Assembly (NCBI RefSeq): GCF_008693385.1
Contig: NZ_CP044067.1
Span: 2,709,501 to 2,773,500, forward strand
DNA: 64,000 nucleotides
Reading direction: 5' to 3'
Source: Cupriavidus pauculus
GTDB lineage: Bacteria > Pseudomonadota > Gammaproteobacteria > Burkholderiales > Burkholderiaceae
Shown here: positions 25,344 to 43,282 of the stretch, piece after piece
How the letters are laid out: every line of letters begins with the position of its first letter
Numbering within the stretch: the first letter of the stretch is position 1
Program-made: the position numbers and the translations under genes
The notes under the pieces: model-generated
Told to the model about the DNA's origin: nothing
What the model saw: only the letters and a program-made list of their open reading frames with translations
Databases searched by the model: none

Positions 25344-25974
25344 AGCTATAGACGGATGCACGCGACACGCCAAGGTGCGCGGCGATGGTTTCCATGGCGC
25401 GCCGCACGTCGAGGAGCCCGGCGGCGCGGAGTTCGGCCAGCAGCGTGCGGCGCTCGTCCGTGCGCAGCGCGCGCGGCGTGGTGGCGTGGCGCGCGGCGAA
25501 TGCGTCGATGCGCGCGCGGATGGCATCGGTGCCGGCGGGGTCGAGTGTCTCGCGCGGACCGTCGGCGTCCATGCGCATGAACTGGTTCATCGCGCTCTGC
25601 AGGCCGCGGAACAGCGTGAGGTCGAGGTTCAGGCACAGCGCGGCGATATAGCGGCCGCTCGAATCCTTGATGCCGATGGACGTGCTCTTGGCCTGGCGGC
25701 CATCCGCGAACTGGTTCGCATAGTTCGCGAGGATCTGCGTGAAGTCCGGGTCGGCGATGCGGGCCATGCCGAGTTCCGTCGCGGGATCGCCGACCTCGCG
25801 GCCGGACAGGTTGTTGTGAATCGCGAGGATGGCCTGATCCGGCGCCAGCAGGTCGTGCACCACGACCTCGCAGAACGGCGCGAGGGTTTGCCCGAGGCCG
25901 TCGGCGATGCGCTCCAGCTGCTCGAGCATGGCGCGCTGTTCCGGGGTGCGGGAGGTCGTGCGGCGGGATTTCAT
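25333..25974 (-). CDS. YheO/DauR-like transcriptional regulator
   Basis: A 213-residue regulator. An N-terminal PAS-like YheO domain (about residues 18-130) contains FCEVVVHDLLAPDQAI and STSIGIKDSSGRYIAALCLN. A C-terminal helix-turn-helix (about 165-212) contains AMETIAAHLGVSRASVYSY. DauR, of this family, controls D-arginine use next to the OCD-family gene dauB. The same partnership is seen here, suggesting an amino-acid-derived inducer. It is first in a three-gene operon. Confidence 0.88.
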   Translation of the reverse strand: MKSRRTTSRTPEQRAMLEQLERIADGLGQTLAPFCEVVVHDLLAPDQAILAIHNNLSGREVGDPATELGMARIADPDFTQILANYANQFADGRQAKSTSIGIKDSSGRYIAALCLNLDLTLFRGLQSAMNQFMRMDADGPRETLDPAGTDAIRARIDAFAARHATTPRALRTDERRTLLAELRAAGLLDVRRAMETIAAHLGVSRASVYSYAR

Positions 25975-26292: not shown

Positions 26293-28434
26293 ATGAAACG
26301 CTCAATGTTGCCTGCGGTATTCGCGATGATGGCCGGTGTGGTCTTTGCGCAGCAGGCCTGGCAGGAAGGTGCCACGTATGCGACGGGCACGCGCGTCACT
26401 TACAACGGGCGTCTCTATGAAGCGATGCAGGCGCATACGGCGTTTGCGGGCGCGGGGTGGAATCCGGCGGCTTCGCCGACGTTGTGGCGGGATCTTGGGC
26501 CGGCGGGGGCGCCTTCGCCGGCGCCTTCCCCTGCGCCTTCGCCTTCGCCTTCGCCGTCGCCTTCACCTTCGCCGACGCCAGCTCCGGCACCCACGCCGAG
26601 CCCTTCGCCGGCTCCGGCTCCGGCTGGCGGGTGCTTTGCGCCGTGGGCCGCGGGGCAGGCGTATGCGGAAGCCGGGACGCGCGTGACCTACAACGGGCGT
26701 AACTATCGGAACAAGTGGTGGACGCAGGGGGACAATCCCGCGCAGTCCGGGACGTGGGGGGTATGGGAAGATCTTGGCGCCTGCTCGGGCGCGCCCGCGC
26801 CGAGCCCGGCACCGGTGCCTACGCCGGGTCCGGCCCCGGCCCCGGCCCCAACGCCAGCCCCGAGCCCGGCCCCGAGTCCGGCCCCGACACCGGCCCCGAC
26901 ACCTGCGCCTGCACCGACGCCTAGCCCGGCGCCTAGCCCAGCGCCCAGCCCGGCGCCTAGCCCAGCGCCCAGCCCGGCGCCCAGCCCGGCGCCTAGCCCA
27001 GCGCCTAGCCCAGCGCCCAGCCCGGCGCCTAGCCCGGCGCCCAGCCCGGCGCCTAGCCCAGCGCCCAGCCCGGCGCCCAGCCCGGCGCCCAGCCCGGCGC
27101 CATCGGGCGGGCGCGAGGTCGGTGGGTATTTTGCCCAGTGGGGCATCTACGGCCGCAACTACAAGCTCAAGAACGTCGACACGTCAGGCGCCGCGCGCCA
27201 TCTCACGTTCATCAACTACGCCTTCGGCAACGTCTACGCAAAGAACGGCGGCTACGAATGCGACATCATCACCAAGGCCGAACCCGGCGCGACCGATCCG
27301 AACAACCCGGAGGCGGGCACCGGCGGCGACGGCTGGGCCGATTACCAGAAGGGCTTCACGAGCGCGGAATCGGTGGACGGTACGTCCGACGCATGGGGCT
27401 TCGCCTGGGACGACCCGCGCAATGGCAAGGCCGGCCCGCTCAAGGGCAACTTCAACCAGCTGCTGCAGCTCAAGAAGAAGTATCCGAACCTCAAGGTCAT
27501 GATCTCGATCGGCGGCTGGACGTGGTCCAAGTGGTTCGGCCGCGCCGCCTCGACCGACGCCCTGCGCAAGCAGCTGGTCTCGTCCTGCATCAACGTCTAC
27601 ATCAAGGGCAACCTGCCGTTCGACGCGGGCGGCAATGCCGGCGGCGACGGGGTGGGCGCGGGCGTGTTCGATGGCATCGACATCGACTGGGAGTTTCCGG
27701 GCGGCGGCGGCCAGCCGTACAACATCGTCGATCCCAACGACAAGAAGAACTTCACGCTGCTGCTCGCCGAATTCCGCCGGCAACTGGACGCGGCCGGCGC
27801 GCAGTCGGGCAAGCGCTTGCTGCTGACGGTGGCCATCGGCTCGGGCGGCGACAAGATCGCCAATACCGAGCCCGGCGAATACAGCAAGTCGCTCGACTGG
27901 ATCAACATCATGTCCTACGACTACCACGGCGGCTGGGAAGCGACGGGGCCGACGGACTTCCAGTCGAACCTGTACGTAGACCCCGACAGCCCGAATGCGA
28001 AGACCGCGGTCGGCAAGACCTACAACGTCGATGCTTCGGTCAATGGCCTGCTCGCCGCCGGTGTGCCCGCTTCGAAGATCGTCGTGGGCGTGCCGCTCTA
28101 CGGACGCGGCTGGACCGGCGTCTCGCCGGGACCGAAGGGCGACGGGCTCTATCAGCCCGCCACCCGGCCCGCGCCAGGCACGTACGAGGCCGGCATCGAG
28201 GATTACAAGATTCTCGTCAACAAGCCGGGCACGGTCCACGAACATCCGGTGACCAAGCAGTCGTGGAAGTTCGATGGCACCACGTTCTGGTCGTACGACA
28301 CGCCAACCACCGCGCGCGTGAAAGTGAACTACGTCAAGCAGCACAACCTGCGCGGCGTGTTCACGTGGGAGCTCGATGGCGACACCGCCGACGCCGAGAT
28401 CACGAAGGTGCTGGGCGAGGTCAACAGTCAATAG
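26293..28434 (+). CDS. GH18 chitinase with two CBM5/12-like modules
   Basis: A 713-residue exported enzyme. A signal peptide ends VFA-QQ near residue 20. A first chitin-binding-like module (about 22-70: [22 protein letters not shown]) and a second (about 113-165: [20 protein letters not shown]) are separated by a short Pro linker. A roughly 105-residue Pro-Ala-Pro-Ser linker precedes a GH18 catalytic domain (about 275-712). The catalytic motif DGIDIDWE is at residues 460-467, with Glu467 the acid. [11 protein letters not shown] is the conserved substrate strand. It cleaves chitin outside the cell. It opens the block that continues with a type II secretion system, which is its probable exporter. 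AAGGGGG precedes the ATG. Confidence 0.93.
26678..26751 (+). repeat. 74-bp identical segment in the GH18 chitinase CBM
   Basis: Identical base for base to 38038-38111 in the GH19 chitinase gene. It encodes the core of the second chitin-binding module. Perfect identity including third codon positions points to recent duplication or gene conversion. Confidence 0.9.
26935..27100 (+). repeat. 12-bp tandem repeats encoding the PSPA linker
   Basis: Repeats of the type CCCAGCCCGGCG / CCTAGCCCAGCG, each encoding Pro-Ser-Pro-Ala. The array is inside the GH18 chitinase linker and should be prone to length change by slippage. Confidence 0.85.
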
Positions 28435-28444
28435 GCGAGGGCAT

Positions 28445-28897
28445 ATGCGAGGACATCTGCGCGCGAGATCCCGCCGGTGGCGGGACACAGGGCACCGCCG
28501 CGGCTTCACGCTGCTGGAACTGCTGGTAGTGCTGCTCATCATCGCGCTGCTGGCCGGCTATGTGGGGCCGCGCCTGTTCGGCGAGGTGGGAAAAGCAAAG
28601 ACGAAGACCGCGGCATCGCAGATGAAGTCGATCGCCAACGCGCTCGACCGGTACCGGCTCGATACCGGACGCTTCCCGAGCACGGAGGCCGGGCTGCAGT
28701 CGCTGATGACCAATCAGGGCAACGTCACGGGCTGGGATGGGCCGTACATGAGCAGCGAGATGCCGGCCGACCCGTGGGGCAGGCCCTACGTGTACCGCAG
28801 CCCCGGCGACGGCGGCAAGGACTACGACTTGCTGACGCTCGGCGGCGACGGGAAGCCAGGCGGCACCGGCGAGGATCAGGACGTGGTCAGCAAGTAG
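28445..28897 (+). CDS. gspG: Major pseudopilin GspG
   Basis: A 150-residue type II secretion major pseudopilin. A basic leader of about 19 residues ends RRG^FTLLE, the prepilin peptidase site with Glu at +5, and is followed by the hydrophobic helix LLVVLLIIALLAGYVGPRLF. The GspG hallmarks are present: DTGRFPSTEAGLQSLM, WDGPYM and DPWGRPYVYRSPG, with a C-terminal calcium-site region GGDGKPGGTGEDQD. It starts 11 bp after the chitinase stop with GAGGG upstream. No prepilin peptidase is in the window, so PilD must be encoded elsewhere. Confidence 0.95.
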   Translation: MRGHLRARSRRWRDTGHRRGFTLLELLVVLLIIALLAGYVGPRLFGEVGKAKTKTAASQMKSIANALDRYRLDTGRFPSTEAGLQSLMTNQGNVTGWDGPYMSSEMPADPWGRPYVYRSPGDGGKDYDLLTLGGDGKPGGTGEDQDVVSK

Positions 28898-28908
28898 CAG
28901 GGACCGGC

Positions 28909-30093
28909 ATGCAATATCGGATACGGGGCAGGTCGGACGCCGGCGAGCAGACGCTCGAGATCGAGGCGGAAGACGAAGCGCAGTTGCGGAGCACGGTGGA
29001 GGCCATGGGAATGGAACTGGTGGAGATCCTGCCTGAGAAGCGCCGCGGCGCGGCATTCGCGTTCCGCAAGCCGGTGTTCGACAGCGCGTTGTTCACGCAG
29101 GAACTCATCGCACTGCTCGATGCCGGACTGAGCCTCGTGGAAACGGTGGAGACCCTGCGCGACAAGGCCGGCGAAGGGATCAACCGCGCCGTGCTGACGC
29201 GCATCGTGGGCGCGCTGTACGAGGGCCTGCCGCTGTCGAAGGCGCTCGAGCAGCAGCCCGATCAATTCCCCGCGCTGTACGTCGCGACGGTGGCGTCCGC
29301 CGAGCGCACGGGTGCCCTGTCGGAGGCGCTCAAGCGCTACCACCACTACGACGCGCGGCTCGCGGTCGTGCGCAAGAAGGTGGTGTCGTCGATGGTCTAT
29401 CCGATGATCGTGATCGCCTCGGGCACCATCATCATCCTGTTTCTCGCGTTCTACGTGGTCCCGAAGTTCAGCAGCGTCTACGAGTCGATGAAGGACATTC
29501 CGGCCTCCGCGCGCGTCATGCTGTGGTGGGGCCGGCTCGTGCACGCGCATGGCATGGTGTTGCTGCTGGCGATGGTCGCGAGCCTGGCCGGCATGGTCAT
29601 GGCATTGCGCACGCAGCGTGCCCGGGCATGGCTCATGGGCATGATGACGCGCCTGCCGAAGCTGGCGCAGTACCAGCACCTGTTCGCGCTCACGCGCTTC
29701 TATCGCACGATGGGCCTGCTCCTGTCCGGCGGCATGCCCGTGGTGGCATCGATGGAGATGTCGGCGCAACTGCTGCCCGCGGCGATGCAACCCTCGCTCG
29801 CGCGCGCGCTCGACGACGTGCACGCGGGCAAGTCGCTGTCCGCCGCGCTGCCGGCGGCCGGGCTGACCACGCCGGTGGCCGAGCGGCTGATCCGCGTGGG
29901 CGAGCAGAGCGGCGAATTGCCGAAGATGGTGACGCGCTCGGCGGAGTTCTGCGACGAGGAACTCGACCGCGCGATCGATACGCTGATGCGCGTGTTCGAA
30001 CCGGTGCTGATGCTCGTGGTCGGCGGCATCGTGGGGACGGTCATCTTCCTGCTCTACATGCCGATCTTCCAGCTCGCGGGCAGCGTGGGGTGA
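28909..30093 (+). CDS. gspF: Type II secretion inner-membrane platform protein GspF
   Basis: A 394-residue GspF/PilC-family protein. Two homologous cytoplasmic helical domains (about residues 60-165 and 265-370) each precede a hydrophobic segment; the membrane segments are near 160-190, 210-235 and 365-390. FTQELIALLDAGLSLVETVE and ERLIRVGEQSGELPKMV are family signatures. It forms the platform on which the ATPase drives pseudopilus assembly. It is followed after 3 bp by gspE. Confidence 0.94.
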   Translation: MQYRIRGRSDAGEQTLEIEAEDEAQLRSTVEAMGMELVEILPEKRRGAAFAFRKPVFDSALFTQELIALLDAGLSLVETVETLRDKAGEGINRAVLTRIVGALYEGLPLSKALEQQPDQFPALYVATVASAERTGALSEALKRYHHYDARLAVVRKKVVSSMVYPMIVIASGTIIILFLAFYVVPKFSSVYESMKDIPASARVMLWWGRLVHAHGMVLLLAMVASLAGMVMALRTQRARAWLMGMMTRLPKLAQYQHLFALTRFYRTMGLLLSGGMPVVASMEMSAQLLPAAMQPSLARALDDVHAGKSLSAALPAAGLTTPVAERLIRVGEQSGELPKMVTRSAEFCDEELDRAIDTLMRVFEPVLMLVVGGIVGTVIFLLYMPIFQLAGSVG

Positions 30094-30096
30094 AAC

Positions 30097-31773
30097 ATGG
30101 CAACCGATCATGGCCAGCCCGCGACGGTCGCCGACCCCCGGTCGATGCAGGCACGCCTCTGGGAGGAATCCGACAAGGATGCCGCCGAGTATCTGCGCCG
30201 CGTGCATGACGCATGCGGCCTGCGCGGCATCGATGCGGAGACGCTCGACACGCTGACACCGTGTTTCGACCTCCTGCCGTTTGCCGAAGCCATGGCGCAC
30301 GATTGCCTGCTGGCGCGCGAGGCGGCCACGCCCGGCGGCGAGGGCCCGCTGCTGCTGATTCTCGCCAATCCGTTCCTGCCGGAACATCGCGCATGGGCCC
30401 TGCAGCGGCTGCGCGCGCGCTTCACGTTCGCATTCTGCGTGCCCACGGAGCTATCGACGTTCCTGGCCATGCACGAGGCGGCTCACCCCACGCTCGATCC
30501 GGTCAGCGGCGGACTCGAGGACATCCGCGTGGGCGAGGCCGGGGTCGAGATCACGCTCGCGACGCTGGCGGCCGACGTGCATCCGGTCGTCCGCCTCGTG
30601 AACTCCTCGCTCTACGACGCGCTCAAGTACCGTGCGTCGGACATCCATATCGAGAGCGTGGCCGGCGGGCTCGTGATCAAGTACCGCATCGACGGCGTGC
30701 TGCAGACGACGGGCCGCGCGAACGGCGCGGAGGTGGCCGAGCAGGTGCTGTCGCGCCTCAAGGTCATGTCGGAACTCGATATCGGCGAGCGGCGCGTGCC
30801 GCAGGACGGCCGGTTCAAGGCGCGCATCAATCATCGCGAGATCGATTTCCGTGTCTCGATCATGCCGTCCGTCCATGGCGAAGATGCCGTGCTGCGCGTG
30901 CTGGACAAGCAGCGCGGCGGCAAGGAGGCGGCGCCGATGCGGCTCGACGCGATCGGGCACGAGGACGATATCGTCGCGGCCATCCGTGCGATCGCACATG
31001 AGCCGTACGGGCTGATCCTCGTGACGGGGCCCACGGGTTCCGGCAAGTCCACCACGCTCTACGCCACGCTGACCGAGATCAACACCGGCGAAGAGAAGAT
31101 CATCACGATCGAGGACCCGGTCGAGTACGAACTGGCGGGCGTGCTGCAGATTCCGATCAACGACAAGAAGGGCCTGACGTTCGCGCGCGGCCTGCGTTCG
31201 ATCCTGCGGCACGACCCCGACAAGATCCTCGTCGGGGAGATTCGCGACGGCGAAACGGCCGGCATCGCCGTGCAGGCCGCGCTGACGGGGCACCTCGTGC
31301 TGACCTCGGTGCACGCGAACAACGTGTTCGCGGTGCTCGATCGCTTTCTGCATATGGACGTCGATATCCATAGCTTCGTCGAGGCGATGCTCGGCGCGGT
31401 GGCGCAGCGGCTCATGCGCAGGATCTGTCCGCATTGCGCGATCGACGATGCGCCGCCCGACGATGCGCTGCTCGCCGCGTCGTGCCTGACGCGCGCGGAT
31501 GTGGCCGGCTGGCGATTCCGTCGAGGCGCGGGGTGCGATGCGTGCCGCAGGACCGGCTATCTGGGCCGGCAGCCCATCGCCGAGGTGTTGCGCTTCAACG
31601 ATGCCATCAAGCAATGCTTCGTCGAGCGCCGTCCCGTGGGCGAACTCAAGCAGGTGGCGCGCGACAACGGCTTTATCCCGATCCGGCAGGTCGCGATGCG
31701 CGCGGTCGCGGACGGCAGGACCACGCTCGCCGAAGTCAACCGCGTGACGGTGGTCGAAGCCGCGCGCCCGTAG
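30097..31773 (+). CDS. gspE: Type II secretion ATPase GspE
   Basis: A 558-residue assembly ATPase. An N-terminal domain (to about residue 150) precedes the catalytic core. Walker A is GPTGSGKST near residue 312, the Asp box is around IEDPVEYE, Walker B is LVGEIRDGETA and the His box is LVLTSVHAN. The zinc-binding tetracysteine motif (CPHC ... CDAC) is intact near 446 and 487, as in GspE and PilB. It powers the pseudopilus in the cytoplasm. Confidence 0.95.
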   Translation: MATDHGQPATVADPRSMQARLWEESDKDAAEYLRRVHDACGLRGIDAETLDTLTPCFDLLPFAEAMAHDCLLAREAATPGGEGPLLLILANPFLPEHRAWALQRLRARFTFAFCVPTELSTFLAMHEAAHPTLDPVSGGLEDIRVGEAGVEITLATLAADVHPVVRLVNSSLYDALKYRASDIHIESVAGGLVIKYRIDGVLQTTGRANGAEVAEQVLSRLKVMSELDIGERRVPQDGRFKARINHREIDFRVSIMPSVHGEDAVLRVLDKQRGGKEAAPMRLDAIGHEDDIVAAIRAIAHEPYGLILVTGPTGSGKSTTLYATLTEINTGEEKIITIEDPVEYELAGVLQIPINDKKGLTFARGLRSILRHDPDKILVGEIRDGETAGIAVQAALTGHLVLTSVHANNVFAVLDRFLHMDVDIHSFVEAMLGAVAQRLMRRICPHCAIDDAPPDDALLAASCLTRADVAGWRFRRGAGCDACRRTGYLGRQPIAEVLRFNDAIKQCFVERRPVGELKQVARDNGFIPIRQVAMRAVADGRTTLAEVNRVTVVEAARP

Positions 31774-31792
31774 GCGCGCGAGGAGGGGAATC

Positions 31793-32698
31793 ATGCCGCA
31801 GTGGCTCAACCAGTCGCGGTCCGTGATGGATCGTGCCGCATCGTCCGGGCGCCGCTGGCGCGAGAGGCTCGCGAAGTCGTTCATGGCGCGTGGCCGTGCG
31901 CACCGGGCGCTGGCCTGGCACAGCAGCGTGGAGATCTGGCTCGATGGCGAGCGTGGCTGCGCGCTCGGCGCATCGGGCACGGGTGGGCAGGCAATACCGC
32001 TCGCGAGCAGTGGCGACGTGGCGGCGGCGCTCGCGGTACTCGAGGCACTGGCGCCGAAACCCGCGAAGCCCGGCCTGCACAGGCTGGGCGTGATCGTCGG
32101 CGCGCCGTTCGTCTGTTATTTCCCGCTGGCATGGCGACCGTTGCCGACCCCCGCCGAATGGATCGCGCAGGCGCGGATGCAGTTCGCGCGCGGCGGCTTC
32201 GGCAATCCGGCCGGATGGCGCTTTGTCGTGCCCGACGCGGCATGGGGCCAGTCACGCCTGGCCGCGGCGATGCCGGAGGCGCTGTGCGCGGGAATCGAAC
32301 GGCTGTGCAGCGCGCGCAAGCTGCGTGTCGCCGCGATCGAGCCCGGGTATGTGCGCGCGTGCACGGACTGCGCGGCGCGCATCGAGGATGGACGCATCGC
32401 CGTGGTGGAGCTCGAGGATATCGATGCGGATGGCGCGATCGCGCACTGCGGGTTCCGCGCGCAGGGTCAGTGGACCGCCTTCGTCACGCTGCCGGTGGCC
32501 GGCGATATCGGCGAGGCCATGCGCGATGCGACGATGCTGTGCGCGGTGCCCGAGCCCGAGCGCACGTACGTGATCGGCTCGGTGCGGGCCGAGGGCCGCG
32601 ACCGGCGGGGACGCCCCGGCCGGCGTGAGGACGTTGCGGTGGCCGGCGCGGCCGGGCTCACCCAGTGGCTGCCGGCGCCATGGGATATCCCGCTATGA
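31793..32698 (+). CDS. Secretion-operon protein in the PilM/GspL position
   Basis: A 301-residue protein without a membrane segment or clear signal peptide. It lies directly after gspE and overlaps the next gene by 4 bp (ATGA), in the slot occupied by pilM or the cytoplasmic part of gspL in related loci. Sequence features are weak: an Arg-rich N-terminus, hydrophobic strands such as RLGVIVGAPFVCYF, and an Arg-rich tail near 280. I can assign it by position only; structural prediction should show whether it has the actin-like fold of PilM. Confidence 0.6.
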   Translation: MPQWLNQSRSVMDRAASSGRRWRERLAKSFMARGRAHRALAWHSSVEIWLDGERGCALGASGTGGQAIPLASSGDVAAALAVLEALAPKPAKPGLHRLGVIVGAPFVCYFPLAWRPLPTPAEWIAQARMQFARGGFGNPAGWRFVVPDAAWGQSRLAAAMPEALCAGIERLCSARKLRVAAIEPGYVRACTDCAARIEDGRIAVVELEDIDADGAIAHCGFRAQGQWTAFVTLPVAGDIGEAMRDATMLCAVPEPERTYVIGSVRAEGRDRRGRPGRREDVAVAGAAGLTQWLPAPWDIPL

Positions 32699-33246
32699 AG
32701 ACCGCGGCCATCGACTTCCGCCAGGGCAATCGTCCGCCGCCGGGCCCGGGCCTGATGGCGATCGGGTTGGGCATCGCCATGCTGGTGGGCGCGCTGCAGT
32801 ATCTGGCGGTATTGCAGGAGCAGGGGCGCGCGCTCGATGCGCGCGACGATGCCATTGCCGCGCAGGAACGCCAGCGGCAGGCCATCAGCAAGGCGCACAA
32901 GAATCTCGAGAATCCGCGCGCGCAGGAACTCATGGCCTTGCAGCGCTACGCGACCGAGCCCGCGCGGCACCTGATCGAACGCGGCTGGCGGCCCAATATC
33001 GCGCTGCTGTCGGTGGAAGTGGCCACGGCCACGCGCGAGATCAACCTCGTGTTCGAAACCCGGAGCGCGCAGGAAGCGCTGTCGTTCGCGGACTGGCTCG
33101 AGTCGCAGCCGAACACCGAGCGCATGACGGTCAAGCGGCAGGTCGAGAAACCGGGGCCGCCCATCAAATCGGTCGAGACCGCGCTGCAGGTCATCTGGCG
33201 GCCATATCGCGGCATGCCCGCGCCAGCTGACGAGGGGGCGCCGTGA
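32695..33246 (+). CDS. PilN-like / GspL C-terminal-like inner-membrane protein
   Basis: A 183-residue bitopic protein. One membrane helix (about residues 20-40, LMAIGLGIAMLVGALQYLAV) is followed by a coiled-coil (about 42-80, Gln/Arg/Ala-rich) and a small periplasmic alpha-beta domain (ISLLSVEVATATREINLVFET-like). This layout is that of PilN and of the periplasmic half of GspL. Start overlaps the previous stop (ATGA) and its stop overlaps the next start (GTGA). Confidence 0.7.
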   Translation: MKTAAIDFRQGNRPPPGPGLMAIGLGIAMLVGALQYLAVLQEQGRALDARDDAIAAQERQRQAISKAHKNLENPRAQELMALQRYATEPARHLIERGWRPNIALLSVEVATATREINLVFETRSAQEALSFADWLESQPNTERMTVKRQVEKPGPPIKSVETALQVIWRPYRGMPAPADEGAP

Positions 33247-33761
33247 CGCGATGGATATGGGAACTCCGCCGCGCGCGATGGCGCTTCGGCACGTTCGGCT
33301 GGCTCGCGCTGCTGCTGATGGCGGTGGCGGCGGGCGTGGCCGCGCTCGAGATCCTGCCGATGCGCGCCGACCTCGCGCGTCGCGCGGAGGAACTCGCGGC
33401 GCGCGAGGCCAAGCTTGCGCATGCGCCGACGCCGGACCCCGACGTGGCCGGCAGGACGATGACCGCCGACCAGCGCTTCTCGGTGTTCCTGCACAGCTTT
33501 CATGCGATCGCGGGCAAGCACGGCCTGTCGGTGCCGCAGGTCACGTATCAGACCGTGGCCGAGGACGAGGCGTCGCTGCGGCGCTACCTCGTGGAGGGCA
33601 CCTTCACGGGTGCGTATCTGCCAATCCGCATGTTCGTCTCGGATCTGCGGCTGCTGCGCGGCGTGCGCATCGAGCGCGTGACCCTCTCGCGCACGGGTAT
33701 CGACAAGACGCAGCTGGATGTTCGCATCAAATGCTCGTTCCTGGTGGAGGTATCGCCGTGA
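33243..33761 (+). CDS. PilO-like / GspM-like inner-membrane protein
   Basis: A 172-residue bitopic protein with a GTG start overlapping the previous stop. A membrane helix (about residues 18-38, WLALLLMAVAAGVAALEIL), a short coiled-coil (RRAEELAAREAKLA) and a ferredoxin-like periplasmic domain (about 75-170, with VEGTFTGAYLPIRMFVSDL) match the PilO/GspM layout. It would pair with the preceding protein to link the ATPase platform to the secretin. Confidence 0.7.
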   Translation: MTRWIWELRRARWRFGTFGWLALLLMAVAAGVAALEILPMRADLARRAEELAAREAKLAHAPTPDPDVAGRTMTADQRFSVFLHSFHAIAGKHGLSVPQVTYQTVAEDEASLRRYLVEGTFTGAYLPIRMFVSDLRLLRGVRIERVTLSRTGIDKTQLDVRIKCSFLVEVSP

Positions 33762-34192
33762 GAGGCGGTTCGTGGCCCGTGGCCGTGCTGCTCGGGCTTG
33801 CCAGTATTCCCGTCGCCGCCCAGCCGGGTGGGGCGGGGACGATGGGTGGGGAGCCCGGCGTGATCGATCTGTTCCCAAGCCAGTCGTGGATGCCGCCGCC
33901 CCCGCCACCGCCGCCTCCACCGCCGCCCCCGCCACCGCCGAAGGACCCGCCGCCGCTGCCGTTTCTCGTGCGTACGTTATGGCTGGACCCGCGCGGGGAC
34001 GTCTATGTGGTGCTCACGGCGGGCGCGCAGGAATTTCGGGTCTGCGCCGCGTGCCAGAACAAGGGTTTCCTGCGCGCGGGCAGTACGTTGCTGGGCGCCT
34101 ACCGCGTCGAGCATGTCACGCGGGACGAGGTCCAGCTGACCTATCTGCCGATGAAGCGGCGGCAGTCGATACCACTGGGAGGCGGCAAATGA
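33758..34192 (+). CDS. PilP-like / GspC-like periplasmic linker protein with polyproline
   Basis: A 144-residue protein with a GTG start overlapping the previous stop. A signal-peptide-like N-terminus (VAVLLGLASIPVAAQ) precedes an uninterrupted run of 16 prolines (residues about 46-61). A C-terminal beta domain (about 70-140) has LDPRGDVYVVLTAGAQEF and YRVEHVTRDEVQLTYLPM, the HR/PilP-type small beta barrel that contacts the secretin. Translation through 16 prolines should need EF-P. It overlaps the secretin gene by 4 bp. Confidence 0.7.
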   Translation: MRGGSWPVAVLLGLASIPVAAQPGGAGTMGGEPGVIDLFPSQSWMPPPPPPPPPPPPPPPPKDPPPLPFLVRTLWLDPRGDVYVVLTAGAQEFRVCAACQNKGFLRAGSTLLGAYRVEHVTRDEVQLTYLPMKRRQSIPLGGGK

Positions 34193-36084
34193 CACGGCTC
34201 GGCATGGTTACGGCGCGCACGCTGGTGCTGCTGCTGCTCGGCTCCTGCGCCGCGGACATGCGGTACCACGAACTCGACGCGAAGCTCGCCGGGCTGCCGC
34301 CCGACGAGGCCCTGCAGGTGCTTGCACAGACGTCCGCGCAGTATCCGGACGATCTGGATATTCGCAGCCGCTACTATCAGCGGCGGCGTCAGGTCATGGA
34401 CGACTATCTGTCGCGCGCGGTGGTGGCCTACGAGGCGGGCGACGCCGCGCAGGCGCGCGCCTTCGCGCAGCGCGCGCAGCAGGCCGCGCCCGGCGACGAC
34501 AACCCGTCGTCGATGATCGAATGGATCAACCGGCAGGCGCCGATCGACATGGCCGTCGCGCATGCGGAAGCGGTGCGCGGAGAGCGCCCCGAGGAAGCGC
34601 TGGCCATCGTCGCCGACGTGCTGGCCAAACAGCCCGGCAATGCGCGCGCGTCGCGGTTGCGCAGCGAACTTACCGCGCCCAAGGGACAGGACCTCGGTCC
34701 GCAGCTGTCGCGGGACCTGAGCCAGCCGATTACCGTGCAGTTTCGCGACCAGCCGCTGATCAGCATCTTCGAGCTCGTCTCCAACATCACGGGCCTGAAC
34801 TTCACGTTCGATCGCGAGGTGGTGGCCACCACGCCGACCACGATCTTCGCGAGCAACACGCCGGTGCGGCAGGTGCTCACGCTCGTGCTGCAGGCCAACC
34901 AGCTCGCCAGCAAGATCGTGAGCGGCAATTCGCTGCTGGTCTATCCGAAGCGCCAGGACAAGGAGGCCGAATACCGCGACCTCGTGGTGCGTACGTTCTA
35001 CCTGCAGAACGCGCAGGCGCCGCAGGTGCTGGCCATGCTCAAGCAGATGGTCAAGTCGAAGGACCTGATCCTCGACGAGCGCACCAACGCGATCGTCATG
35101 CGCGACACCGCCGAGGCGATCAAGGTGGCCGAGCGGCTGGTGGCCGCGCTCGACGTGGTGCCCGCCGAGGTCGTGATCGAGGCGCAGATCCTCGAGGTCA
35201 CGGCATCGGACCTGCTGCAGCTCGGCATCCTGTACCCGGGCCGCATCGACTTTACCGCGCAGCCGCTGCCCGACGCCAACGATCCGACGGCCCGCGTGCC
35301 GGGCGTGCTGACGCTCGACCAGCTTCGTCATATGAACAGCAGCGACATCCTCGTGCGGCTCGGCGCGCCGTCGGTGGCGCTGGATATCCTGCAAAGCCAG
35401 GGCAAGACCAAGACACTGGCCTCGCCGCGCATCCGCGTGCGCAATCGCGAGAAGGCCAAGGTGCTGATCGGCGATCGCCTGCCCGTGGTGACGACCACGC
35501 TGTCGAGCAACTTCAGTTCGGAGAGCGTGAACTACCAGGACGTGGGCCTGACGCTCGAAGTGGCCCCCGTGATCGTCGGCAGCAGCGAGGTGCAGGTGAA
35601 GATGCGGCTCGAGGTGTCGAACGTCACCGATACGATCACCACGAGCAGCGGGCTGATCGTCTATCAGATCGGCACGCGCACGGCGGAGACCGTGATGAGC
35701 GTGCGGAACAACCAGACGCAGGTGCTCGCGGGACTGCTCCAGCGCAATGAGCGCAACGCCGGGCAGGGGCTGCCGGGACTGAGCCGCATTCCGCTCCTCG
35801 ATCGCGTCTTCGGCACGCGGACCAACGAAGAGCGGCAGACCGAGCTCATCCTGCTGCTGACGCCGCGCGTAGTGCGTCATCAGGAGATTCCCGCCGGCAA
35901 TATCGTCACGTTCGACTCGGGCACGGAAGGGCGCATCACGACCGAGCGCGACATCATTTCGGGCGATATCCGCATGCCGCCGCGTCTGGGTGGACCCGCG
36001 GGTTCGGCGCCGCCGGCCGCGCCGCCATCGGCGCCGCCACCGATGGCGCCAGCGCAAGCCGCGCCGCGGCCGCCGGGGCAGTAG
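34189..36084 (+). CDS. gspD: Secretin GspD (outer-membrane lipoprotein)
   Basis: A 631-residue secretin. The N-terminus has a lipobox ending LLLLGSC near residue 17-18, so it may be lipid-anchored and independent of a pilotin. A helical repeat region (about 25-160) replaces the usual first N-domain. N-type domains follow (about 175-340, with ITVQFRDQPLISIFELVSNI and DLILDERTNAIVMRDT). The secretin core (about 345-570) has VGLTLEVAPVIVGSSEVQVK and LPGLSRIPLLDRVFGTR. A Pro/Ala tail ends it. It forms the outer-membrane pore for the flanking chitinases. Confidence 0.92.
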   Translation: MTRLGMVTARTLVLLLLGSCAADMRYHELDAKLAGLPPDEALQVLAQTSAQYPDDLDIRSRYYQRRRQVMDDYLSRAVVAYEAGDAAQARAFAQRAQQAAPGDDNPSSMIEWINRQAPIDMAVAHAEAVRGERPEEALAIVADVLAKQPGNARASRLRSELTAPKGQDLGPQLSRDLSQPITVQFRDQPLISIFELVSNITGLNFTFDREVVATTPTTIFASNTPVRQVLTLVLQANQLASKIVSGNSLLVYPKRQDKEAEYRDLVVRTFYLQNAQAPQVLAMLKQMVKSKDLILDERTNAIVMRDTAEAIKVAERLVAALDVVPAEVVIEAQILEVTASDLLQLGILYPGRIDFTAQPLPDANDPTARVPGVLTLDQLRHMNSSDILVRLGAPSVALDILQSQGKTKTLASPRIRVRNREKAKVLIGDRLPVVTTTLSSNFSSESVNYQDVGLTLEVAPVIVGSSEVQVKMRLEVSNVTDTITTSSGLIVYQIGTRTAETVMSVRNNQTQVLAGLLQRNERNAGQGLPGLSRIPLLDRVFGTRTNEERQTELILLLTPRVVRHQEIPAGNIVTFDSGTEGRITTERDIISGDIRMPPRLGGPAGSAPPAAPPSAPPPMAPAQAAPRPPGQ

Positions 36085-36094
36085 GAGCGTCACC

Positions 36095-36580
36095 GTGCGA
36101 TACATTCGATATCCCGCGCGCGGCTTCACGCTGGTCGAGATGCTGGTGACGCTCGCGATCGTCGCGATGCTTGCTTCCGTCGCGCTGCCGTTGACGCAGG
36201 TGGCGGCACAGCGCACGAAGGAGGAGGAGCTCAAGCGCATGCTGTGGAAGATGCGCGATGCGATCGATGCGTACAAGGCGGCCGCGGAGGCCGGCAAGAT
36301 CGATCGCACGATTGGCGACAGCGGTTATCCGGCGACGCTCGAAACGCTCGTGGAGGGCGTGCCGGACAAGACCAGCCCGACCAAGGCGCGCATCTATTTC
36401 CTGCGTCGCATTCCGCGTGACCCGATGTGCGATTGCCCGAGCACCGCGGATGCGAAGACGTGGGGCCGCCGCAGCTATGCGAGTCCGGCCGATGCCCCGC
36501 GCGAGGGCGTAGATGTCTACGACGTGTATTCGCAGTCGGCCGATGTCGGGCTCAACGGCATTCCTTACCGGCAGTGGTGA
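36095..36580 (+). CDS. Pseudopilin with prepilin cleavage site
   Basis: A 161-residue pseudopilin starting at GTG 36095 with AGGAG upstream. The prepilin site is ARG^FTLVE with Glu at +5, followed by the hydrophobic helix MLVTLAIVAMLASVALPL. The C-terminal part has EEELKRMLWKMRDAIDAYK and RRIPRDPM, the pattern shared by GspG-like minor pseudopilins. Two Cys in DPMCDCPST could form a local disulfide or metal site. It resembles the third pseudopilin-like protein downstream and was probably duplicated. Confidence 0.88.
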   Translation: MRYIRYPARGFTLVEMLVTLAIVAMLASVALPLTQVAAQRTKEEELKRMLWKMRDAIDAYKAAAEAGKIDRTIGDSGYPATLETLVEGVPDKTSPTKARIYFLRRIPRDPMCDCPSTADAKTWGRRSYASPADAPREGVDVYDVYSQSADVGLNGIPYRQW

Positions 36581-36585
36581 CGGCC

Positions 36586-36969
36586 ATGCGTGTTTCCGAC
36601 GCGGCCCGCAGGGCCTTCACGCTGATCGAGCTGCTGGTGGTGCTGGCGATTCTGGCCACGTTGCTGACGCTCGTCGTGCCGCGTTACTTCGGGCAGACGG
36701 ACAAGGCGCGCGACACCGTGCTGCGCGAGAACCTGACCGCGATGCGCGATTCGATCGACCGGTTTCGCGCGGACGAGGGGCGGTATCCGGGCTCGCTCGA
36801 CGAGCTCGTGCAGAAGCGTTATCTGCGCGAGATTCCGCTCGATACGGTGACGCAGAGCCGTGCGACGTGGAAGACGGTGCCCGCGCCCGATGGCAAGCCC
36901 GGGGTGTACGACGTGCGCAGTGGCGCGAGCGGGAAGGGGAAAGATGGGACGGACTATGGCTCGTGGTAG
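36586..36969 (+). CDS. GspG-like pseudopilin
   Basis: A 127-residue pseudopilin. Leader RRA^FTLIE (Ala rather than Gly at -1, which prepilin peptidases tolerate), hydrophobic helix LLVVLAILATLLTLVVPRYF, then EGRYPGSLDELVQKRYLREI and a short C-terminus. A GTG at 36577 overlaps the previous stop (GTGA) and would add three residues; either start is possible. It may cap or initiate the pseudopilus. Confidence 0.87.
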   Translation: MRVSDAARRAFTLIELLVVLAILATLLTLVVPRYFGQTDKARDTVLRENLTAMRDSIDRFRADEGRYPGSLDELVQKRYLREIPLDTVTQSRATWKTVPAPDGKPGVYDVRSGASGKGKDGTDYGSW

Positions 36970-37435
36970 GCGGGCGCGCGGGTTCGGGATTATCTGGGCG
37001 CTGATGTGCGTGGCGCTCATGGGGATCTGGCTCGCGCGCGTGGGGGAGATGTGGAGCACGCTCGCGCAACGGACGCGCGAGGAGGAGTTGCTGCGCAACG
37101 GCCATGCGATTCACGTGGCGATTCGCGGTTACGTGGCGGCGGATGCGAGCGGTGCGTATCCGCGGGAGTTCGACGATCTGCTGGCCGATCCTCGCACGTC
37201 GTTCGCGCGGCGGTTTCTGCGCGCGCGATATCGGGATCCGATGGCCGAGGGGAACGCCGACTGGCAGGTGGTACGCGGGCCCGCGGGCGAGTTGTACGGC
37301 GTGTACAGCAACGCGCCGGGCACGCCGCTCAAGCAGGACGGGTTTCCCGACGAGTACGCGAGTTTCTCTCTGCAGAAGCACTACAGCGAGTGGAAGTTCG
37401 TGCATTACCCGAGCGGCAGCATGATGCGGCGCTGA
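36944..37435 (+). CDS. Pseudopilin-like protein lacking Glu5
   Basis: A 163-residue protein starting at ATG 36944 with a purine-rich AGGGG site upstream. The N-terminus is RARG^FGIIWALM, a prepilin-like site where residue +5 is not Glu, as in tip pseudopilins of the GspK kind. The rest is close to the first minor pseudopilin of this cluster ([27 protein letters not shown]). It overlaps the previous gene by 26 bp and ends 34 bp before the GH19 chitinase. Confidence 0.75.
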
Positions 37436-37469
37436 GGGTTGCGCGCGCGGCAAAGGAAGGAGGACGGTC

Positions 37470-39854
<2,385 letters not shown>

Positions 39855-39884
39855 CGGTGATTCAACGGCGGGGCGGAGGCGGAC

Positions 39885-40535
39885 ATGTCCATTTTCACGC
39901 TGCTCAGGGTCCTCGACAGGTTGCTGACGGGCGCGATCGTCGCGACGACGGGCATCGTGCTGGTGGCGATCTTCGTGCCGGCATCCGCATGGGCGATGCT
40001 GGTCTGCACGGACGCAACTGGCGCCACGCTTTACGCCACGCAGCGGGTGCCGGCGATGCAATGCCGCCGCGTGCCGGGCATCGACATCGTGGTGCCCGCC
40101 CGCCGCGAGCCCGCGCAGCCGTATCTGCCGCGCCCGCTCGATACCGCATCCTATGCGCGCGAGATCGACGCCGTCGCGCGGGAGTTTGGTATCGATGCGG
40201 CCACGGTGCGCGCGATCATCCATGTGGAGTCCGCGTTCAACCCGCGCGCGGTGTCGCGTGCCGGGGCACAGGGACTGATGCAGTTGATGCCCGGCACCGC
40301 GCAGCGCTTCGGCGTGCAGGATGCCTTCGACTCGGCGCAGAACATTCGCGGCGGGGTGCGGTATCTGGTCTGGCTGCTCGCGCGCTTCGGCGGCAACGTG
40401 GATCTTGCGCTGGCGGGGTTCAATGCGGGCGAAGCCGCGGTGGAGCGATACGGCGGCGTGCCGCCGTATGCCGAAACGCAGCGGTATGTGAGCGAGGTGC
40501 GGCAGATGATCGGCCGCTACCGGATGGCCAGCTAG
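39885..40535 (+). CDS. Lytic transglycosylase (SLT domain)
   Basis: A 216-residue exported or membrane-anchored muramidase. An N-terminal hydrophobic segment (about residues 15-37) precedes a small DUF4124-like strand region. The SLT domain is about 90-205: IIHVESAFNPRAVS with catalytic Glu, GAQGLMQLMPGTAQRFGV, and ALAGFNAGEAAVERYGG. It cuts peptidoglycan. Located 30 bp after the GH19 chitinase, it probably opens the cell wall for the secretion system, as transglycosylases do in other secretion loci. It meets nasA convergently with 8 bp between. Confidence 0.88.
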   Translation: MSIFTLLRVLDRLLTGAIVATTGIVLVAIFVPASAWAMLVCTDATGATLYATQRVPAMQCRRVPGIDIVVPARREPAQPYLPRPLDTASYAREIDAVAREFGIDAATVRAIIHVESAFNPRAVSRAGAQGLMQLMPGTAQRFGVQDAFDSAQNIRGGVRYLVWLLARFGGNVDLALAGFNAGEAAVERYGGVPPYAETQRYVSEVRQMIGRYRMAS

Positions 40536-40543
40536 AGGGCCGC

Positions 40544-43282
40544 CTACGCGGCCTCGGCGACGCGAATCTCCGCCAGCAGCTTCTTGAGCTCGGGCACGCA
40601 CGAACCGCAATTGCCGCCCGCCTTCACGCACTTCGTGATCTCGGCAGGCGTCTTGAGGTCGTGCTGGCGCACGGCATCGCATATCGTGTTGCGTCCCACG
40701 CCAAAGCACGAGCACACCGTGGGCCCCGCGTCCGCGATCTTCTCCATCGGCTGGCCCAGCAGCAGGCCGATGCGGTCCGCATCCTCGAGCCGCTCGTGCG
40801 CGAACAGCTGCGAGAGCCACGTGCGGGAGGGCAGGTCGGGACGCGTGGAAACATACACGCAGGCCACGAGCCGGTCGTTGACCACATAGCCCGCGTGATA
40901 GACACCGGCGGTGCGATCCTCGTACTCGATCCAGTCGGCATCGGGATCGATCACGCCGAGCAGTTCGCGCGCCCAGGCGGAGCGGTCCGCCACGGTCTCG
41001 CGTCCCGCGAACTCGTAGCGATGGCATTCGCGGCCCTGCACGCGCGTCCACCATGTCAGGCGATCGAGGTCCACCTCCTCGCGCGCGAGCGCAAAGCCAT
41101 GCCACGACACGCGGAATTCCTCGACGCGCACGGGCGTGTGCTTGAACTCGGGCTCGCCGGATACCGGATCGACGGCAGGGTTGACCACAGCACCGACGCG
41201 CGCGTCGGAGCTGAACTGGTCGTTCCAGTGGATCGGCACGAAGATCGTGCCGCGCGCGATGCCGCCACCGTGGCGCACGCGCGCGACCATCGCGCCCCAC
41301 TGGCTGGTGACACGCGCCAGGCGGCCTTCGCTCACGCCGCACAGCAGCGCGTCCTGCGGGTGCATATCGACGATCGGCTCGGGCATGTGTTCGCCCAGCC
41401 GCGCGGAACGTCCCGTGCGCGTCATTGTGTGCCACTGGTCGCGGACGCGGCCCGTGTTGAGCACCAGCGGGTATTCGTCGTCGGTCGCGTGCATGGGCGC
41501 GCGCGGCGGCGTCGGCACGAAGCGCGCGCGGCCGTCGGCATGCGCGTAGCGGCCATCGGTGAACAGGCGCTCGGTACCGGCGTCGGCACGGTCGCGCAGC
41601 GGCCATTGCACGGGTTCCAGCGCGTCGTAATCCTGCTTGTTCAGCCCCGTGAGCCCGCCGATATCGAACGCGCGCCATGCATCGCCCTCGGCGGCCTCGC
41701 CGTTGCGGAACGCGGAGAGCCGCGCATGCTCGTCGAAGATCTCGTGCGGCGACGTGTAGTCGAAGCCCGCAAAGCCCATGCGGCGCGCGACCTCGCTGAG
41801 GATGTCCCAGTCCGCGCGCGCCTCGCCCGGCGCGGGCAGGAACGCACGCTGGCGCGAGATGCGGCGCTCGGTGTTGGTGACCGTGCCGTCCTTCTCGCCC
41901 CAGCCCAGCGCGGGCAGCAGGATGCGCGCGGCGTCGTTGGTGTCGGTGCGGACGACGATATCGGACGACACCACCAGTTCGCACTTTGCGAGCGCGCGGC
42001 GCGCCTGATCGGCGTCGGGCAGGCTTACCAGCGGATTGGTGGCCATGACCCACACCGCCTTGATGCGGCCGGATTCGATCGCCTGGAACAGGTCCACGGC
42101 CTTCAGCCCGGGCTTGTCGGCCATGGCGGGTGACTGCCAGAACGTCTGCACGATATCGCGATGCAGCGGGTCCGCCAGTTCCATATGCGCGGCCAGCATA
42201 TTGGCCAGGCCGCCGACTTCGCGGCCGCCCATCGCATTGGGCTGGCCCGTGAGCGAAAACGGTCCCATCGCTGGCGCGCCGATGCGGCCCGTGAGCAGAT
42301 GGCAGTTGATGATGCTGTTGACCTTGTCGGTGCCGGACGAGGACTGGTTGACGCCCATCGAGAATGCGGTCACGACCTTGCGGGTATCCGCGAACAGCTG
42401 GTAGAACGCCTCCAGGTCGCGCGGATCGAGGCGGCAGGCGCGCGCCACGTTCTCGATATCCATGCCCTCGGCATCGGCGGCACGCAGCGTATCGTCGAGG
42501 CCCGAGGTATGCGCGGCGACGAATGCCTCGTCGGTATGGCCATTGCGGGCCAGATAGGCCAGCAGACCGTTGAACAGTGCCACGTCGGTTCCCGCGCGCA
42601 GCGGCAGATGCATGTCCGCCATCTCGCAGGTAGCGGTGCGGCGCGGATCGACGACCACGATCTTCATGTCAGGCCGCGCCTCGCGTGCCTTCGACAGGCG
42701 CTGGAACAGGATCGGATGGCACCACGCGGTGTTCGAGCCCACCAGCACGACGAGGTCCGCCTGCTCCAGGTCCTCGTAGCTGCACGGCACGAGGTCCTCG
42801 CCGAACGCGCGCTTGTGGCCGGCCACGGCCGAAGACATGCACAGGCGCGAGTTTGTGTCGATATTGGCCGAACCGATAAAGCCCTTCATGAGCTTGTTGG
42901 CGACGTAGTAGTCCTCGGTCAGGATCTGGCCCGAGACGTACAGCGCCACCGCGTCGGGACCGTGCTCGGCCACGACCCGCGAGAAACCCTGCGCCACGGC
43001 GTCCAGCGCGGTATCCCACGAGACGCGGCGCAGCGTGCCGTCGGCCTCGCGCATCTGCGGATGCAGCAGGCGGCCGTCGAGCGATACCGTATCGCCGAGC
43101 GCGGAGCCCTTGACGCACAGGCGGCCATGATTCGACGCATGATCGACATCGCCCTGAATGTCGACCTGTCCGTCGGCGCGCACGGTCGCGCGCACGCCGC
43201 AGCCGACGCCGCAGTACGGGCACGTGGTCGAGGTCGTGGCGGTCGGCGTGGCCGAGACCACTGCAATGTCGGACAGGTTCAC
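40544..43282 (-). CDS. nasA: Assimilatory nitrate reductase, molybdopterin catalytic subunit with C-terminal Fe-S domain
   Basis: A 912-residue cytoplasmic enzyme reducing nitrate to nitrite. A [4Fe-4S] motif (CPYCGVGCG) is near residue 20. The bis-MGD molybdenum core (about 60-700) includes SRLCMSSAVAGHKRAFG with the expected Cys ligand and TNPLVSLPDAD. The dinucleotide-binding domain is near 600-740. A BFD-like [2Fe-2S] domain at the C-terminus (CSCFGVGRN ... GGNCGSC) is fused, as in Klebsiella-type NasA. GTG at 43282 is the best start; no ATG is suitable. It is the last gene of the nitrate operon. Confidence 0.94.
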   Translation of the reverse strand: MNLSDIAVVSATPTATTSTTCPYCGVGCGVRATVRADGQVDIQGDVDHASNHGRLCVKGSALGDTVSLDGRLLHPQMREADGTLRRVSWDTALDAVAQGFSRVVAEHGPDAVALYVSGQILTEDYYVANKLMKGFIGSANIDTNSRLCMSSAVAGHKRAFGEDLVPCSYEDLEQADLVVLVGSNTAWCHPILFQRLSKAREARPDMKIVVVDPRRTATCEMADMHLPLRAGTDVALFNGLLAYLARNGHTDEAFVAAHTSGLDDTLRAADAEGMDIENVARACRLDPRDLEAFYQLFADTRKVVTAFSMGVNQSSSGTDKVNSIINCHLLTGRIGAPAMGPFSLTGQPNAMGGREVGGLANMLAAHMELADPLHRDIVQTFWQSPAMADKPGLKAVDLFQAIESGRIKAVWVMATNPLVSLPDADQARRALAKCELVVSSDIVVRTDTNDAARILLPALGWGEKDGTVTNTERRISRQRAFLPAPGEARADWDILSEVARRMGFAGFDYTSPHEIFDEHARLSAFRNGEAAEGDAWRAFDIGGLTGLNKQDYDALEPVQWPLRDRADAGTERLFTDGRYAHADGRARFVPTPPRAPMHATDDEYPLVLNTGRVRDQWHTMTRTGRSARLGEHMPEPIVDMHPQDALLCGVSEGRLARVTSQWGAMVARVRHGGGIARGTIFVPIHWNDQFSSDARVGAVVNPAVDPVSGEPEFKHTPVRVEEFRVSWHGFALAREEVDLDRLTWWTRVQGRECHRYEFAGRETVADRSAWARELLGVIDPDADWIEYEDRTAGVYHAGYVVNDRLVACVYVSTRPDLPSRTWLSQLFAHERLEDADRIGLLLGQPMEKIADAGPTVCSCFGVGRNTICDAVRQHDLKTPAEITKCVKAGGNCGSCVPELKKLLAEIRVAEAA

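Follow-up and report, generated by a model that had tools for sequence, protein, structure and literature searches.

A chitinase-flanked cassette encoding a type II secretion-like machine in Cupriavidus pauculus and its place in a chitin-linked clade

The cassette and its chitinase genes

The DNA considered here, hereafter the window, is a stretch of 64,000 nucleotides from the genome of Cupriavidus pauculus (7.06 Mb, three contigs), and it contains on contig C3, between positions 26293 and 40535, a cassette of fourteen genes on the forward (+) strand that joins two chitinases to a machine of the type II secretion system (T2SS) kind. In order, these genes encode a GH18 chitinase, GspG-, GspF- and GspE-like components, four small proteins termed M, N, O and P, a secretin, three pseudopilins, a GH19 chitinase and a lytic transglycosylase. 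Pfam matches for GH18, GspG, GspF, GspE, the secretin, GH19 and SLT bear out the gene content, positions and single strand proposed in the initial annotation, and its description of tight packing also holds, the largest gap being 34 bp and five junctions being overlaps (gene starts were picked among in-frame start codons). From the GH18 gene through gspG, gspF and gspE to M the gaps measure 10, 11, 3 and 19 bp, each of the M/N, N/O, O/P and P/secretin junctions is a 4-bp overlap, and the secretin gene is followed by gaps of 10 and 5 bp, a 26-bp overlap and gaps of 34 and 30 bp. All fourteen reading frames are open, and the locus has the appearance of one operon-like cassette whose genes are probably co-transcribed. 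The same annotation had called it self-contained, which it is not, because both prepilin peptidase matches of the genome sit on another contig, C1.

The GH18 chitinase (26293..28434, +; 713 amino acids [aa]; PF00704, 4.1e-74) carries two CBM5/12 modules (PF02839, 9.9e-24), Pro-Ser-Ala linkers and a DGIDIDWE motif, and it is the single GH18 match in the whole genome. The GH19 chitinase (37470..39854, +; 794 aa; PF00182, 6e-28) also has two CBM5/12 modules (PF02839, 1.1e-23) and matches GH19 chitinases of known structure (1.5e-35). A Sec-type signal peptide was read by eye on both proteins, which share chitin-binding modules, as had been noted before. The genome has CBM5/12 in three proteins, two of them inside the cassette; the remaining one, a GH19-like chitinase that also has two such modules, is encoded at C3:607193-607672 (L020, L021), outside the cassette, and is a possible extra substrate of the machine. 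No AA10 lytic polysaccharide monooxygenase (LPMO) was found in this genome. The last gene of the cassette encodes the lytic transglycosylase (39885..40535, +; 216 aa; PF01464 SLT, 1.8e-26).

The secretion machine

The core of the machine starts with a GspG-like major pseudopilin (28445..28897, +; 150 aa), whose matches to T2SSG (4.2e-36) and N_methyl (8.3e-8) were obtained on the longer frame 28376-28897. It is followed by a GspF/PilC-like platform protein (28909..30093, +; 394 aa; T2SSF 1.2e-45 on a longer frame), scoring 262.5 bits as GspF against an equivalog cut-off of 424, and by a GspE/PilB-like assembly ATPase (30097..31773, +; 558 aa; T2SSE 5.5e-118), which scores 447 bits as GspE (cut-off 630) and 421 as PilB (676) and keeps the Walker A and zinc-cysteine motifs. 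The secretin (34189..36084, +; 631 aa) is a lipoprotein with a lipobox-like N-terminus (MTRLGMVTARTLVLLLLGSC), and its longer frame gives matches to Secretin (7.4e-36), Secretin_N (5.5e-12) and STN (2.6e-6), together with a weakly TPR-like N-terminal region (TPR_14, 0.0088); its family scores are 172 bits for GspD (cut-off 351), 151 for PilQ (284) and 106 for MshL (250). The top families of the ATPase, the platform protein and the secretin are therefore GspE, GspF and GspD, with PilB, HofC/PilC and PilQ behind them; of the four Gsp core components, the NCBIfam scan for cut-offs covered these three, and the major pseudopilin was judged by Pfam. Three further pseudopilins come after the secretin: a GspH/G-like one (36095..36580, +; 161 aa; N_methyl 1.4e-8, GspG 4.6e-9, below cut-off), a GspG-like one (36586..36969, +; 127 aa; N_methyl 3.7e-7, GspG 1.3e-15, below cut-off) and a GspK-like minor pseudopilin of about 163 aa (36944..37435, +; GspK, E=0.073), which is weak on its own score and is seen in the same position in relatives.

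Between gspE and the secretin gene lie M (31793..32698, +; 301 aa), N (32695..33246, +; 183 aa), O (33243..33761, +; 172 aa) and P (33758..34192, +; 144 aa, with a Pro-rich linker). Neither M nor P has a Pfam or NCBIfam match, and N and O have weak, unrelated matches alone (E 0.011 or worse), so that the Pfam search for GspM and GspC returned nothing for O and P; nor is there a T2SSL match, that is, a one-piece GspL, among the genes of the island. PF05137 (PilN) was found in five of 17 aligned members of the N family (best 2.2e-7), the copy in the window itself giving none. Alignments of M, N and O with the PilM/GspL, PilN/GspL and PilO/GspM of the same genome gave at best P=0.0092 (O with PilO); one sequence makes a poor reference, which is why these three were examined by structure searches and PDB-profile searches instead. 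By fold, M is an actin-like protein as near to the cytoplasmic part of GspL as to PilM, the PDB-profile search giving no match for it; N matches the PilN of 3jc8 by profile (1.4e-5); and O has PilO as its best profile match, with a fold also related to PulM. The PDB-profile search returned nothing relevant for P; hhalign of the P alignment against the PilP of this genome gave a P-value of 1.9e-4 (52 columns, probability 47) and against its GspC one of 3.2e-3 (42 columns), making P PilP/GspC homology-region-like and the weakest assignment of the four. Judged by these profiles and folds, M, N, O and P are diverged versions of PilM, PilN, PilO and PilP, in other words a split GspL, a GspM and a GspC core. 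The proposal that GspC, GspL and GspM are unrecognisable and replaced by Pil-like proteins thus stands as to the PilM/N/O/P-like genes at that place, the PilO-like O and the PilM fold of M; it has to be amended in that M is equally GspL-like and O also PulM-related, and because of the former "GspL split in two" describes the situation better than "GspL absent".

A canonical Gsp cluster lies on C1, with recognisable GspL (the single match of the genome), GspM (6.7e-45) and GspN, and with the sole GspC match close by. The cassette therefore encodes a T2SS-type machine of its own, built on a type-IV-pilus-like platform, which agrees with the earlier suggestion that it is distinct from the housekeeping T2SS. 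There are eight secretin matches in the genome, and a second PilM-N-O-P-Q-like set was observed at C3:2452500-2472400 (L011), beside a row of pilin-like genes and a gene for a 1103-aa protein and away from the PilQ locus, which is on C1.

Distribution and conserved gene order

Searches with the secretin gave matches in 77 of the 299 genomes of the host's family (E<=1e-40), in 137 of the 399 of its order (1e-50) and in nine of the 369 of its class (1e-70), the latter being the genome itself, two others of the same order and six outside the order. The search is specific, since 1e-40 was reached by a single one of the eight secretins in the window's genome. The family loci came from 72 of the 77 genomes with a match, plus the window (G122, G248, G256 and G270 were left out), and the order loci were 40 taken from the better-scoring of the 137 genomes. 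The first set comprised 40 family and 40 order loci, and 40 further family loci were added as a later test; a set of named loci was formed by the best 80 of 446 stretches, found with a query alignment from the chitin-linked clade described below (13 of its 14 members having a chitin neighbour). Among those best 80, the closest named relatives of the secretin are those of Cupriavidus pampae (89% identity) and C. plantarum (88%); with the latter, identity is 92% over 1498 columns of the GspE, GspF and secretin (E+F+D) alignment.

The order G-F-E-D-H-I-K, whose presence in relatives had been suggested as a check, is kept in 38 of 40 family loci, the exceptions being L062 (broken) and L086 (rearranged), which argues that the arrangement is not due to chance; exactly four same-strand genes between E and D were called in 29 of the 40. 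Most loci of the later sets keep this order too, with rearrangements in L109, L119, L121, L195, L196 and L214 and some loci cut by contig ends. In two Caballeronia-group genomes (L062/L154 and L066/L183, one of them Candidatus Burkholderia verschuerenii) several genes of the cassette are in pieces and there is no GH19 match. In Pseudomonas gingeri, P. sp. FEN and P. agarici (L195, L196 and L214) the pseudopilins and an LPMO gene precede gspG.

A clade of the machine linked to chitin enzymes

The 80 loci of the first set were scored over six frames with profiles of GH18, GH19, LPMO, CBM5/12, RHS and SLT, and chitin genes were looked for within fetched stretches extending about 10 kb or less to each side. 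In an E+F+D tree of 77 loci with a canonical outgroup, the window belongs to a clade of 42 rows with a Shimodaira-Hasegawa-like approximate likelihood ratio (SH-aLRT) support of 99, and chitin genes lie near 37 of these 42 rows vs 0 of the 35 others, a distribution that takes four changes on the tree. A mixture-model tree of 40 chosen rows recovers the clade with 100/100 (chitin genes 16/19 vs 0/21, three changes), as does the tree of all loci (117 rows; SH-aLRT 100; 38/44 vs 0/73, five changes). The 77-loci and all-loci trees were built without L062, L066, L111 and L127, and the named-loci tree without L154, L181, L183 and L208; for the counts, loci dropped from the trees were assigned to the clade or not by hand.

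The link is also one of position. In 39 of 44 clade loci, the two broken ones included, a GH18 or LPMO gene lies within 2.6 kb upstream of gspG (GH18 in 27, LPMO in 12, none in five), and outside the clade 0 of 37 loci have one there (seven of the 37 could not be judged). The 40 later family loci comprise two clade members (L254, with an LPMO, and L241, without) and 38 outside loci, none with a chitin gene and one without gspG in reach, which brings the total to 40 of 46 clade loci vs 0 of 75 outside (eight not judgeable). As for the 80 named loci, 46 of the 62 in the clade have GH18 or LPMO just upstream of gspG, six have such a gene farther downstream (LPMO 5, GH18 1) and ten have none in reach; of the 18 outside, 12 gave none and six could not be judged. 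The ten belong to Andreprevotia (three), Chitiniphilus (two), Iodobacter (two), Chitinolyticbacter, Amantichitinum and one metagenome-assembled genome grouping with Iodobacter; for Andreprevotia ripae, the available text of one paper reports an extensive chitinolytic repertoire (PMC8802321).

The same spot thus holds GH18 chitinases of several types or an AA10 LPMO, and GH19 comes further down, which means that the neighbour has been swapped and yet remains chitin-active. The transglycosylase belongs to the common pattern of the cassette: among 44 clade loci, its gene separates gspG from gspF in 13, an arrangement of the LPMO-type sister cassettes, lies elsewhere in the locus in 16, and was not found in 15. 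The shared binding modules, in which the initial annotation saw possible export tags, show up clearly in some cargo and weakly in other cargo. Pfam finds CBM5/12 in the LPMO of L067, L074, L075 and L082 and in the GH18 of L066, and the scanned LPMOs carry GbpA_2 and mostly CBM5/12 too; it finds none in the GH18 of L076, L077, L078 and L081 or in the LPMO of L083, all full open frames, and in a six-protein search with our own CBM5/12 profile the four GH18 proteins showed weak stretches (E 2.5e-5 to 0.009). Since such modules bind chitin anyway, their presence says little on export.

The clade includes, among other genera, Cupriavidus, Caballeronia, Burkholderia, Chitinibacter, Deefgea, Chitinimonas and Chromobacterium, as well as Lysobacter, Dyella and Pseudomonas. 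The whole GH18-machine-GH19 cassette is present in Lysobacter arvi and a Dyella sp., which branch beside the Cupriavidus-Caballeronia group; Rudaea is placed among Burkholderia, and Pseudomonas gingeri/agarici are next to the LPMO group. This branching points to transfer between orders, by which, on the evidence of the trees, the Lysobacter, Dyella and Pseudomonas members were apparently acquired.

Some other features of the relatives deserve to be recorded. A response-regulator-like gene (227 aa) directly follows the third pseudopilin in L067-L073 and L079, with a similar one of 233 aa in L074, and could be a switch of the LPMO-type cassettes. Outside the chitin-linked clade, RHS-like matches occur in L086 (the locus with rearranged order), L107, L123, L102 and L201, and large frames beside such members (L088 41-4342, L103 1375-4530, L110 14042-17023 and L102 574-4323) possibly encode other cargo.

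Surroundings of the cassette

The cassette is flanked on the left by a gene for a YheO-like regulator (25333-25929, -) and on the right by one for a molybdopterin oxidoreductase (40544-43282, -). The G+C content over the island, 0.66-0.71, is the same as in the surroundings, and no sign of recent arrival was seen in its composition; both tRNAs found are distant. A promoter scan of the cassette gave no promoter-like site, a result below the shuffled mean, and a terminator scan gave one terminator-like site on the reverse strand, likewise below the shuffled mean.

Discussion

What can a secretion machine be doing between two chitinase genes? The best explanation, which we consider probable, is that it is dedicated to exporting chitin enzymes that Sec has translocated. 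This is supported directly by the gene content, the folds of M and O, the profile links of N (and weakly of P), the conserved order, the linkage seen in the clade and the presence of a separate T2SS; from these we infer that the machine assembles, that it exports and that it selects its substrates. The dedicated chitin exporter of the initial annotation gains in this way a chitin link conserved across many genera, secretion by the machine being the presumed part of the proposal. Because of their Sec-type signal peptides, the chitinases would pass through Sec and then fold in the periplasm. With M, N and O forming an inner-membrane ring, the GspE ATPase would work on the GspF platform and raise a short GspG pseudopilus with the three minor pseudopilins at its tip. 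The contact with the lipoprotein secretin, through which the outer membrane would be opened, would be made by P, and the lytic transglycosylase would clear space in the peptidoglycan. For the processing of its prepilins the machine would depend on a peptidase encoded elsewhere.

Several points weigh against this interpretation. The ATPase, the platform protein and the secretin score far under the NCBIfam equivalog cut-offs for GspE, GspF and GspD. The strongest counter-argument is that in Burkholderia rhizoxinica, according to the available text of its description, a chitinase leaves by the canonical T2SS (PMC4166002), combined with the finding of a GspL match in 45 of 48 genomes that have the machine studied here. 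A surface pilus for attachment to chitin, the chitinases being merely co-regulated and leaving by the canonical T2SS, would account for both that second system and the PilM/N/O/P-like platform, and the close GspE and PilB scores of the ATPase (447 and 421 bits) are in keeping with it. Nevertheless, the best families of the ATPase, the platform protein and the secretin are those of T2SSs, the major pseudopilin matches T2SSG, and none of the fourteen genes is PilT-like (the lone ATPase scores 150 bits as PilT vs 447 as GspE), which makes a pilus quite unlikely in our view. Something more, though still not much, can be said for a machine that exports many substrates and whose link to chitin has arisen incidentally, through shared ancestry and habitat: a neighbour may be kept by descent, and six of the 46 clade loci have no chitin gene just upstream. 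Against this unlikely alternative, the kind of neighbour varies and stays chitin-active all the same, and the tree-wide counts are 38/44 vs 0/73. The machine might finally be a decayed or silent leftover, as the visibly broken cassettes of the two Caballeronia-group genomes could suggest; with fourteen open frames in the window, 92% E+F+D identity with C. plantarum and an ATPase retaining its Walker A and zinc-cysteine motifs, this is very improbable.

The three genomes without a GspL match (G180, G125 and G434, the models being weak) bear on a dedicated exporter of chitin enzymes in another way. A search for GspK gave a match over the family cut-off in ten of ten genomes, with E<1e-10 only in G000 (the genome of the window), G159, G302 and G615; the best matches in G180, G125 and G434 (2.5e-6, 4.1e-6 and 1.3e-4) lie in frames of 788-820 aa and are probably an unrelated protein. 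Because GspL gave no match there and GspK is weak, the cassette-type machine may be the only T2SS-type machine of these three, and since the neighbour is an LPMO in G180 and G125 (L075 and L083), these two offer natural test cases for export by it.

New here is that the tree of the machine tracks its neighbour genes; a literature search limited to open-licence papers turned up no earlier description of such a chitin-linked clade. A broader view, to which we give an even chance, is that of a distinct T2SS-like exporter class with a type-IV-pilus-like platform and a chitin branch, in which the machine and its class of cargo have co-evolved, the enzyme has been swapped (GH18, GH18 with GH19, or AA10 LPMO) and the cassette moves between orders. 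How a T2SS picks out its substrates has been an open question for a long time: if this view were correct, the machine itself would encode the choice of substrate, which could then be deciphered from the set of machine-cargo pairs. As the phylogeny of the machine predicts the class of the neighbour gene, replicated across genera, coupled changes of machine and cargo can be sought, and an exporter for chitin enzymes is proposed for strongly chitinolytic genera.

Comparison with known systems

Compared with the canonical T2SS, the cassette has the Pfam families of GspD, GspE, GspF and GspG and lacks recognisable one-piece GspL, GspM and GspC. With the type IVa pilus (PilMNOPQ) it shares the order M, N, O, P before the secretin and the platform itself, N and O matching PilN and PilO best, M having a fold shared with GspL and P being weakly alike; it differs in its GspG-, GspE- and GspF-type partners, in having no PilT-like gene and in a secretin slightly nearer to GspD. 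Chitin enzymes and T2SSs have been brought together before. The chitinase and chitin-binding protein of B. rhizoxinica leave by a T2SS whose gene table runs from gspC to gspO in the available portions of its descriptions (PMC4166002, PMC3102044), and the locus tags given there for chitinase and T2SS are far apart, whereas the cassette has both together. Txc of Pseudomonas paraeruginosa PA7, with CbpE, resembles the cassette in having a chitin cargo gene beside the machine, although its platform, as far as the accessible text describes it, is of the ordinary Gsp kind, with GspL encoded by txcY (PMC12369383, PMC8623646), for which the cassette has no match. For Ramlibacter, the part of the source available lists a small second T2SS (gspDHEFG) and ties a chitinase to the type III secretion system (PMC3164672), and a T2SS of Geobacter, a group to whose systems the initial annotation had likened the platform, is likewise called atypical.

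A close counterpart, by the layout given in the available portions of its published description, is the unorthodox T2SS of the Ralstonia solanacearum species complex, which has seven core genes, not 12, and in which gspE and gspD are in one case separated by four genes without names (PMC5080846), a layout that the cassette equals. It is described there as occurring beside an orthodox T2SS, just as the cassette genome has a canonical one. One of these Ralstonia systems adjoins rhsB according to the text at hand (PMC6428702), and chitin cargo is unmentioned in the available portions of both descriptions (PMC5080846, PMC6428702), in contrast to the chitinases of the cassette. On the best explanation, the machine belongs to an "unorthodox" T2SS lineage with a PilM/N/O/P-like platform, and its clade has specialised on chitin enzymes.

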